A DNA stretch of 64,000 nt from a bacterium (GTDB lineage: Bacteria; Actinomycetota; Acidimicrobiia; Acidimicrobiales; CATQHL01): contig JAPPDX010000093.1 in assembly GCA_028824415.1 (NCBI GenBank), positions 19,156 through 83,155 on the forward strand. The letters run 5' to 3'. Shown here piece after piece: positions 17,948 through 21,049 of this stretch. How positions within the stretch are numbered: the stretch's first letter is position 1; each line of letters begins with the position of its first letter. Made by a program: the position numbers and the translations under genes. The notes beneath the pieces are model-generated. The model was not told the DNA's origin, made no database searches, and worked only from the letters and a program-made list of their open reading frames with translations.

Positions 17948-19093
17948 TCAGCGGTAGAGGCGGCGCACCCGCCGGCCGATGTCGCAGACCACCTCATAGG
18001 GAATCGTGTCGAGCCGCACCGCAATCTCCTCGGCGCTGATGCTCTCGGAGCCCTGCCTGCCGATCAGGACGACCTCGTCGCCGGCCACCACGTCGCCGTC
18101 GGAACCGCAGTCCACCATGAGTTGATCCATCGTGACCACCCCTACCACAGATCGGCGCCGCCCCCTGATGAGGACCTCCCCGCCGAGCAGGCCGTAGTCG
18201 CGCCGTGCACCGTCCGCATAGCCGATGGGCACCGTCGCCACGCACGAGTCGGAGCTGAAGCGGTGGGCGAGCCCGTATGAGATCGCCTCGCCGGCGCGAA
18301 CGGTCTTCACATAGGACACCTCGGTCCGGAGCCCCATCGCGGGGCGCAGCCCGCCGAGTTCGCCATCCAGCCCGGCGCCCGGTGACAAACCGTAGAGGGC
18401 GATCCCCGCCCGGACCATGTCGTAGCGGCTGCGGCGACGGATCGGCGAGGTGTCGGGCCGGCCGGCGGAGAGCAGCAGCGCCGAATTGGCGGCGTGGCGC
18501 CGCAACGGACGCCGCACGCCGTCCCGGTCCGTCAACAGCGCCAGCACGTCCTCGTAGCGGCCGAGCTGCTCGTCGGTGAACGGGTTGTCCAGCTCGTCGG
18601 CGACGGCGCAGTGAGTCCAGACGCCCTCCAGCTCCAGGTCACTCTTGGCGACGATGGCACGCGCCAGCAGCAGGGCATCGTCGGGGTGCGCGCCGACGCG
18701 GTTCATCCCCGTGTCGATCTTGAGGTGCACAGGCAGGCGTCGAGCGGCGGAGGCGGCCGCCGCTGCCGCCGCGGCCAGGCCGACAGGGCTGTAGACCGAG
18801 GGGCGCAGGTCGTGCGCCACCACCTCCACCATCTCGTTGGGCCGCGGCTCGCTGAGCAGCAGGATCGGCGCCGTCACGCCCGCTTCGCGCAGTTCCACGC
18901 CCTCCTCCACGAGGGCGACCGCCAGCCACGTGGCGCCACCGGCCAGCGCGGCCCGCCCTGCGGCCACCGAGCCGTGCCCGTAGCCGTCGGCCTTGACCAC
19001 CGCACACAGCTCGGCAGGGGCCGCCCGGCGGGCGAGTTCGGCGGCGTTGGCCTCCAGGGCCTCCAGGTCCACGACGGCCGAGGTGGGGCGCAT
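17948..19093 (-). CDS. alr: alanine racemase
   Basis: ELCAVVKADGYGHGSVAAGRAAL, HLKIDTGMNRVG, GYADGARRDY, MDQLMVDCG. Confidence 0.95.
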   Translation of the reverse strand: MRPTSAVVDLEALEANAAELARRAAPAELCAVVKADGYGHGSVAAGRAALAGGATWLAVALVEEGVELREAGVTAPILLLSEPRPNEMVEVVAHDLRPSVYSPVGLAAAAAAAASAARRLPVHLKIDTGMNRVGAHPDDALLLARAIVAKSDLELEGVWTHCAVADELDNPFTDEQLGRYEDVLALLTDRDGVRRPLRRHAANSALLLSAGRPDTSPIRRRSRYDMVRAGIALYGLSPGAGLDGELGGLRPAMGLRTEVSYVKTVRAGEAISYGLAHRFSSDSCVATVPIGYADGARRDYGLLGGEVLIRGRRRSVVGVVTMDQLMVDCGSDGDVVAGDEVVLIGRQGSESISAEEIAVRLDTIPYEVVCDIGRRVRRLYR

Positions 19094-20541
19094 CAGTCGC
19101 TCCCGGACCCGCCGCCCAATCCCTGCCCCGCCGGCTCCAGCGTGGCCGCCAGAACGGCGGGGATCGCTCCGAGCAGATCGCCTCCGATGAGGCCGACGGG
19201 TGGACCGAGCGCACCGGCCATCCCATGCACCTGCGCGGCGAGCGCGGGTGCATTCAGCGGATCCGCACCCTGCGCCAGGAGGGCGCCGATCATCCCGGCG
19301 AGCACGTCACCAGTACCCGCGGTTGCCAATCGGGCGTCGCCCGAGGTCACGAAGCGGGCCGCTCCGTCGGGCGCGGCGACGACGGTGGTGGGTCCCTTGA
19401 GCAGCACGGTCGCTCCCGCTGCGGCCAGCGTCCGCGCCGCCTCCAAGCGATCGGCGCCGGGCCGGCAGCCCGCCAGCAATTCGTACTCCCCGTCGTGAGG
19501 CGTGAGTACCACCGGGGCGCGCGCCGCCGCCAGGACGGCCCCCAGGTCGCTGGCGAGCGCCGCCAGGGCGTCACCGTCCAGCACCAGGGGCACGGTCGCC
19601 CGCGCCACCAGTCCCCGCACCGCGGTCGCGGTCTGCGGATCTCTCCCCAAGCCAGGACCGACCACCAGTGAGCCGAACCGGGAGATGTCCAAGCGCTCAT
19701 GCCAGTTCGCGGCCGGCAACGGCCCGAAGACCACCTCGGTCGGGACCGACGCATCGGGCTCGCCGCCCGGCACCGAGAGGCGCACATATCCCGCCCCGGA
19801 CCGCAGCGCCGCCAGAGAGGCGAGAGACGCCGCCCCGCGCATTCCGGGAGAGCCGGCCACTACCCAGCAGGCGGAACGCCACTTGTGGGCATCGACTTCT
19901 CGCCGGGGCCAGAGGTCGGCCACGTCTGCCTCTGTCAACAGCTGCGCGGTCGCCGAGGTGACGTCCAGGCCGATGTCGGCGACACTGACCGACCCGGCCA
20001 GCCCACGACCCGGATGCGCCAGCAGACCCGGCTTAAGCGCTGCGAACGTCACGGTGCGTGTCGCCGCCAAGGCGCCGCCCTGCACCTGTCCCGTGAGCCC
20101 GTCCACACCGGAGGGGATGTCCACAGCCAGAACGTTTCCGGCACCTTCAATGCCTGCCGGCGGGGTCCAGGGCCGGTTCAGCCCGGTGCCGTAGGCGGCG
20201 TCGATCAGCAGGTCGCAGGGTGGGAGTTCGGCGGCGTCGGGAGCGATGACCCGGCACTCGGCACCGGCGCGCTGCAGGTGGCGGGCCGCGGCCCGGCCGT
20301 CGGCCCCGTTGTTGCCGCGACCGGCCACGATGGTCACCCGGCGCCCCGCCAGAGCCTTGCGGCGAGCGGCCGACGGTCGTCCCGCCTCCAGGACCGCCGC
20401 GGCGCCCTCGGTCGCCCCCGTGAGTAGCTCCACCGCCGCCACGGCAACCGCGGCGCCGGCCCGCTCCACCAGTACGTCGGTGCCTTCCGGGGCGACAGCA
20501 TCGATGGCCGCCATCTCGGCGGGCGTGACGACAGGAATCAC
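19093..20541 (-). CDS. nnr: bifunctional NAD(P)H-hydrate epimerase / ADP-dependent dehydratase
   Basis: VTPAEMAAIDAVAPEGTDVLVERAG, AGRGNNGADGRAAARHL, HKWRSACWVVAGSPGMRGAA, GTGDVLAGMIGALLAQG. Confidence 0.93.
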   Translation of the reverse strand: MIPVVTPAEMAAIDAVAPEGTDVLVERAGAAVAVAAVELLTGATEGAAAVLEAGRPSAARRKALAGRRVTIVAGRGNNGADGRAAARHLQRAGAECRVIAPDAAELPPCDLLIDAAYGTGLNRPWTPPAGIEGAGNVLAVDIPSGVDGLTGQVQGGALAATRTVTFAALKPGLLAHPGRGLAGSVSVADIGLDVTSATAQLLTEADVADLWPRREVDAHKWRSACWVVAGSPGMRGAASLASLAALRSGAGYVRLSVPGGEPDASVPTEVVFGPLPAANWHERLDISRFGSLVVGPGLGRDPQTATAVRGLVARATVPLVLDGDALAALASDLGAVLAAARAPVVLTPHDGEYELLAGCRPGADRLEAARTLAAAGATVLLKGPTTVVAAPDGAARFVTSGDARLATAGTGDVLAGMIGALLAQGADPLNAPALAAQVHGMAGALGPPVGLIGGDLLGAIPAVLAATLEPAGQGLGGGSGSD

Positions 20542-20642
20542 GTCAGCGCATCCCCTGTCCCGGAGCCGGCGAGGGCCGACGTCCAGGAGCCTGGATCCCG
20601 GCCTCCGCCGGGATGACGATCGGGAGTGACGACAGGGATCAT
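20538..20642 (-). other. 34-aa leader ORF (MIPVVTPDRHPGGGRDPGSWTSALAGSGTGDALT) between acpS and nnr
   Basis: ATG overlaps acpS stop (ATGA); TGA stop overlaps nnr GTG (GTGA). Confidence 0.6.
20595..20614. repeat. REP-like palindrome ATCCCGGC-CTCC-GCCGGGAT
   Basis: Perfect 8-bp arms; flanking GTCATCCCGGCGGAGGCCGGGATCCAGG resembles widespread bacterial intergenic repeats. Confidence 0.75.
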
Positions 20643-21049
20643 GCCGGGTCGTCGCTCCGGGCCTCCTGGGGCGGGGCAATCCCGTCGGCGGCGACGGCCA
20701 CCGCCACCGCCACTGCGGAAGTGGCCGTGTGGGAGAGGCTCAGATGCCACCCCGTCACACCGGCTCGCCGGGCTCGCGCTGCGGCACGGCCGTGGAGGCG
20801 CACCTCGGGTTTGCCGCCGGGGGCGCGCACGACCTCCATGTCCCGGAACGCCACATCCCCGAATCCGGCGCCGAGTGCTTTCATCACGGCCTCCTTGGCT
20901 GCGAAGCGTGCCGCCAGGCGCTCGGTGGGATCGGCACGGGCTTCGGCGTAGGCCCGTTCGGCGGGGGTGAAGAGTCGCTCGGCGACCGACGGGCGGCGCG
21001 CCAGCAGAGCGCCGAAGCGCGGCACGTCCACGATGTCGATGCCGATCAT
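20639..21049 (-). CDS. acpS: holo-[acyl-carrier-protein] synthase
   Basis: MIGIDIVDVPRFGALL, LAARFAAKEAVMKALG, WHLSLSHTATSAVAVAVA. Confidence 0.94.
   Translation of the reverse strand: MIGIDIVDVPRFGALLARRPSVAERLFTPAERAYAEARADPTERLAARFAAKEAVMKALGAGFGDVAFRDMEVVRAPGGKPEVRLHGRAAARARRAGVTGWHLSLSHTATSAVAVAVAVAADGIAPPQEARSDDPA

Follow-up and report, generated by a model that had tools for sequence, protein, structure and literature searches.

A CGTC-1-type REP and a duplicated gene junction between acpS and nnr in a genus of Acidimicrobiia

A CGTC-1-type repeat between acpS and nnr

CGTC-1 REPs, which include Neisseria dRS3 and Rickettsia RPE-6 (Di Nocera et al. 2013, PMC3733652), carry a CGTC tag, an 8-bp stem that starts with AT, a 4-nt loop and a CCA tail, and occur in many, mostly intergenic copies that are at times read as peptide. 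The survey lists CGTC repeats for Proteobacteria, Chlorobi, Bacteroidetes, Spirochaetes and Thermotogae, with Actinobacteria not listed, and left open how these repeats move, no dedicated transposase being known. It gives head-to-head dimers as a usual, not defining, trait of CGTC families and terms head-to-tail pairs negligible. A junction duplication of 31-38 bp at insertion is absent from that paper, in whose text "duplicat" appears nowhere.

Three further systems resemble the locus described here in part. The palindrome of Rickettsia palindromic elements likewise stays readable within genes, but those elements sit inside ORFs, whereas here both genes are intact and a separate small ORF was made. 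GTAG-REP/REPIN sequences with RAYT are also short palindromes in many copies; they differ in that the tag here is CGTC and that no Y1 transposase was found in the genus, and a RAYT-mobilised GTAG REP/REPIN was rejected on these grounds. As for bacterial MITEs, part of the REPs in this genus form the core of a MITE-like unit, whereas the acpS-nnr copy is without MITE arms and CTAG borders.

The window, a 64-kb stretch of DNA, contains a single match to the palindrome, at a junction with the following features:

20639..21049, minus strand: acpS, holo-ACP synthase, 136 aa, from the ORF list (stop TGA 20641-20639)
20621..20643, minus strand: duplicated junction copy 1, CATGATCCCTGTCGTCACTCCCG, with the acpS stop and the former nnr start
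20538..20642, minus strand: leader ORF MIPVVTPDRHPGGGRDPGSWTSALAGSGTGDALT*, 34 aa, sharing bases with the acpS stop (ATGA) and with the nnr start (GTGA)
20591..20618, minus strand: REP palindrome CGTCATCCCGGCGGAGGCCGGGATCCAG, stem 20614-20607 / 20602-20595, loop GGAG
20543..20590, minus strand: right-hand 48 bp of the insertion, without a detected match to the MITE arm
20551..20556, minus strand: AGGGGA, a putative Shine-Dalgarno-like motif 9 nt upstream of the nnr GTG
20520..20542, minus strand: duplicated junction copy 2, CGTGATTCCTGTCGTCACGCCCG, with the working nnr start
19093..20541, minus strand: nnr, NAD(P)HX epimerase/dehydratase-type, from the ORF list and homologues (start GTG 20541)

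The function of the nnr product we take from established knowledge of its family. Homologues of acpS were present in 55 of 60 relatives, and the named matches, 65-90% identical in nnr, belong to Acidimicrobiia MAGs, e.g. SB0668_bin_6 and SB0661_bin_55. The genus is presumably sponge-associated, as we read the isolate names.

The layout given in an earlier note on this DNA proved exact. On the minus strand acpS ends in ATGA (A at 20642), the ATG of which opens an ORF; the start-like sequence ATGATCCCTGTCGTCACTCCC at 20642 and GTGATTCCTGTCGTCACGCCC at 20541 lie 101 bp apart and are identical at 18 of 21 positions; the palindrome stands between the two starts (20618-20591), and the 34-aa leader runs through it to a TGA (20540-20538) that overlaps the nnr GTG. 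The flanking direct repeat scored 16, against null medians of ~7 and null 99th percentiles of ~14. No known RNA family exceeded its threshold at the junction; the best match, the Rfam dauA motif at 20557-20643 on the plus strand, opposite to the leader, reached 26 bits against a gathering threshold of 45 and is probably due to chance or a shared hairpin.

The genome that holds the window (G000; 3.19 Mb in 138 contigs) contains 99 palindrome matches at no more than 3 mismatches and 99-107 copies overall, compared with 0 matches to the reversed pattern under the same limit, so that the palindrome, as the note had required, is repeated genome-wide. All 8 genus genomes carry the family (15-211 copies each), and it was found in none of the 77 genomes sampled from elsewhere in the order; G008, a same-family genome of the sister genus, has one poor match with 3 mismatches. 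Stem arms covary, CCCGGC/GCCGGG alternating with TCCGGC/GCCGGA (C-G to T-A in both arms). The junction copy has an 8-bp stem that starts with AT and encloses a 4-nt loop (ATCCCGGC GGAG GCCGGGAT). A C precedes GTC in this copy and in 91 of the 97 copies inspected, and nearly all copies end in the CCA tail. A search of the 8 genus genomes for PF01797 gave no Y1/RAYT transposase, and to that extent the family agrees with CGTC-1 REPs also in having no associated transposase. It departs from them in its close pairs (no more than 200 bp apart), which are mostly on the same strand, 6 of 8 in G000 and 12 of 12 listed in G007 by hand count. The label "REP-like" can thus be kept and narrowed by tag, stem, loop, tail and copy number: the element is a REP of CGTC-1 type, familiar in kind and new to this phylum.

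Empty and filled junctions in the genus

In four genus members (G002, G003, G004 and G006) nnr has a single GTG that overlaps the acpS stop, and the element is missing; the contig of G005 ends inside acpS, which places it outside this comparison. The 101-bp spacer is thus not common to all relatives, and the single overlapping start which the earlier note had anticipated in element-free relatives is what was found. Copy 1 of the window (20621..20643) matches the single junction of G003 and G004.

G007 is a filled site with the arrangement acpS - VIPVVTPNRHPGGGRDLASWGDPS* - nnr, in which the two start regions are identical over 22 bp. When its flanks were placed on the empty site of G003 they overlapped by 31 bp, and the insert consisted of the REP with 5 nt on its left and ~9 nt on its right; the flanks of G000 overlapped by 23 bp, which is the extent of the duplication still recognisable there. 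The sequence GGCGACCC.TCG at the acpS end of G003 recurs upstream of G007 copy 2. Since copy 2 keeps this part of the acpS end, the acpS stop belongs to the duplicated unit. The idea that an element had inserted in or duplicated the nnr start region while stop-start coupling was kept therefore stands, by comparison with the empty sites, as regards insertion, duplication and frame, with the correction that the repeated unit is wider than the nnr start and also carries the end of acpS.

In G001 the REP is in place, preceded by sequence weakly like the nnr start (shuffle p 0.016-0.029) and within a 42-codon leader; this is probably the same insertion, its copy 1 having decayed. The distance from the acpS stop to the start of the REP is exactly 24 nt in G000, G007 and G001. 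The pattern among relatives is patchy: G003 and G007 are 92.5% identical, yet the former is empty and the latter filled.

Of 225 copies, two have TCCTGG directly after the REP, and these are the acpS-nnr copies of G000 and G007. Both inserts also have the ATCCC stem variant (20% of the 225 copies), the GGAG loop (26%) and ATC before the REP (9%); the 48-bp right part of the window copy is common to G007 only at its start, gCTCCTGG. Because rare flank, stem variant, loop and ATC all match, the two inserts most likely represent one insertion by descent, or a local exchange. The earlier suggestion of an old event agrees with this, the same insertion being present in G007, as the TCCTGG flank indicates, and probably also in G001, a deep lineage. 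Separate entry of REPs into the same hotspot in G000, G007 and G001, with the junction duplicated each time, is an unlikely alternative that would account for the empty site in G003, the sister of G007, and for the 22-bp identity of the G007 copies, as expected of a young event. It sits poorly with the shared flank, stem variant and loop and with one stop-REP distance in three lineages; both G007 copies moreover carry the same derived bases, which suggests conversion between them and would explain their identity. Shared ancestry has its own cost, as it requires exact loss in G003 and probably in other lineages, for which deletion via the direct repeats would be the simplest account. That the junction is an assembly artefact or a chance similarity, a concern with MAGs, is hardly credible: the same architecture occurs in the independent species bin G007, and the flanking repeat exceeds the null expectation.

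The spacers measure 101 nt in G000, 71 in G007 and 125 in G001, each 2 mod 3, and the leader (34, 24 and 42 codons, respectively) therefore always ends on the nnr start codon, with its TGA overlapping that start. The chance of such frame agreement is 1/9 to 1/27, or ~1/27-1/81 at best. Openness of the leader is weak evidence for coupling because GC-rich inserts seldom contain stops. Judging from frame and overlap, stop-start coupling from acpS through the leader to nnr is predicted to be kept, and ribosomes would make use of the leader. We also considered that the leader might be under selection as a regulatory peptide or attenuator of nnr and not a by-product. In favour of selection, it is open and coupled from stop to start in all three lineages although its length changed by -30 and +24 nt, and in G007 a GGAGG lies 4 nt ahead of its start; conservation of the peptide solely in MIPVVTP and the REP-encoded parts, its absence from at least 4 relatives and the below-threshold dauA score speak against it, and we regard a selected leader as improbable, slightly more so than separate insertions.

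A second duplicated junction and the genus-wide survey

An independent case in the same genome (G000 C18:24550) lies at the junction of a putative amidase and an alpha/beta-hydrolase, both named from the look of their sequences. There, 38 bp are duplicated around TTGTC-REP-AAAC, and the resulting 74-bp unit (74 being 2 mod 3) is present three times in tandem. G003 has the empty site, with the amidase stop followed after 2 nt by the alpha/beta-hydrolase start, and in G000 new leaders, MPHVQVSDGLSSFRRRPESRNGG and MPHAEVRDGLSSFRRRPESRNGG (twice), precede an intact hydrolase-like gene. In locus L226 of this genome (positions 619-841), the arrangement appears as three tandem 23-aa leader ORFs before the alpha/beta-hydrolase-like gene, made by the same kind of junction duplication.

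When 225 REP copies, taken from G000, G005, G007 and further genomes, were compared with 1.5 Mb of G003, 101 could be mapped, 14 with something equivalent in G003 and 87 as filled/empty comparisons. Among these 87, long duplications are rare: two loci only, acpS-nnr and amidase/hydrolase, showed an identity above 0.7 between copy 1 and copy 2, while most REPs came with larger, unalignable insertions or within a MITE. A target-site duplication for all copies was rejected, most BLAST flank overlaps being spurious extension (copy1-copy2 identity 0.2-0.6).

Many copies stand in head-to-tail arrays together with flank, with periods of 48-135 bp; such tandem arrays were noted at L390-L399 (G007, G001) and L226 (G000), and the 135-bp unit of L391 (45 codons) resembles part of a coding sequence. 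By eye, in about one fifth of the G000 copies the left arm is repeated in short tandem runs together with ~9 bp of flank. At L193, L179, L187, L191, L027, L006 and others, runs of the left arm (GTCATTCCGGC) with 8-10 bp of flank lie upstream of a full REP. These runs, seemingly with GGCG microhomology, suggest hairpin-linked slippage.

A subset of REPs forms the core of a MITE-like unit of 109-117 bp with inverted ends (GAGACTGCTGAGCAAT.../...ATTACTCAGCACACTC) and borders CTAG-GAGACTGCTGAGCAAT..., CTAG being enriched 36-39 bp before the REP (15 copies) and 49-53 bp after it (13), compared with ~1-2 per 5-bp bin. Copies number ~28 in G007, 13 in G005 and 1-2 in G003 and G000. The family, CTAG-GAGACTGCTGAGCAATGC...REP...GGATTACTCAGCACACTC-CTAG, often lies near TAG stop codons (L414, L421 and L435 of G007; others of L410-L439), and no autonomous partner was seen.

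Routes of insertion and their consequences

Taking its parts together, we consider it probable that an ancestral insertion of a CGTC-1-type REP, with duplication of ~31 bp of the junction and preserved coupling, was followed by recombination between the repeats. A REP of this family, for which no transposase was detected, would have inserted in an ancestor at nnr codon 7-8, 24 nt past the acpS stop, and ~31 bp around the overlapping acpS stop and nnr start would have been duplicated. Copy 1 would then preserve the end of acpS and copy 2 give nnr a complete start, while the stranded first start would open a leader that crosses the palindrome and stops at the nnr start codon, whereby acpS-leader-nnr coupling would be retained. 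Direct-repeat recombination could subsequently delete the insert exactly, leaving a single junction (G003 and others), homogenise the copies (the 22 identical bp of G007) or multiply the unit (the three tandem units of the amidase/hydrolase junction).

Regarding the act of insertion, the MITE-like units of the genus might point to a classical transposase-made MITE insertion with target-site duplication. This we regard as very improbable for the junction copy, which is without both arms and whose REP stands 3-5 nt away from the duplicated target; at 31 and 38 bp the duplications also differ from the 4 bp of CTAG, and the right flank matches the MITE arm no better than shuffles do (p 0.23 and 0.52). 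A worn MITE was likewise rejected, given the right-flank p of 0.23, a left flank that is nnr sequence and the missing CTAG borders. Ku-type end joining was set aside since Ku was not found in the 8 genus genomes, which are incomplete MAGs. We favour a templated insertion during repair or replication, in which the template would be left, a REP copied and the template rejoined 30-40 nt upstream; templated or staggered-break repair would thereby take the place of a fixed-length transposase cut. With two events as its basis, this preference is held because the REP lies 3-5 nt from the target, the duplication lengths differ (31 vs 38) and neither Y1 nor Ku was found. The position at gene junctions may reflect survival: among overlapping genes, only insertions that duplicate both stop and start would leave both genes intact. 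Somewhat doubtfully, one may extend this to CGTC-REPs in general, which might spread transposase-free by insertions resembling template switches, each with 30-40 bp of target duplicated, with tightly packed operons keeping only the junction-duplicating insertions and so seeding coupled leaders.

The novel point is an insertion that duplicates a gene junction over a long stretch, and it is present twice. The filled/empty pairs, in which a bare REP is flanked by duplications of 31 and 38 bp, are a footprint that any mechanism of CGTC-REP movement must explain, and the genus offers a system for studying it. The insert, a small selfish palindrome, was apparently tolerated with the shared stop/start site duplicated, both genes whole and a tiny new ORF between them. 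An overlapping gene pair can thus take up an insertion without loss of either gene, which is a route by which small leader ORFs can arise.
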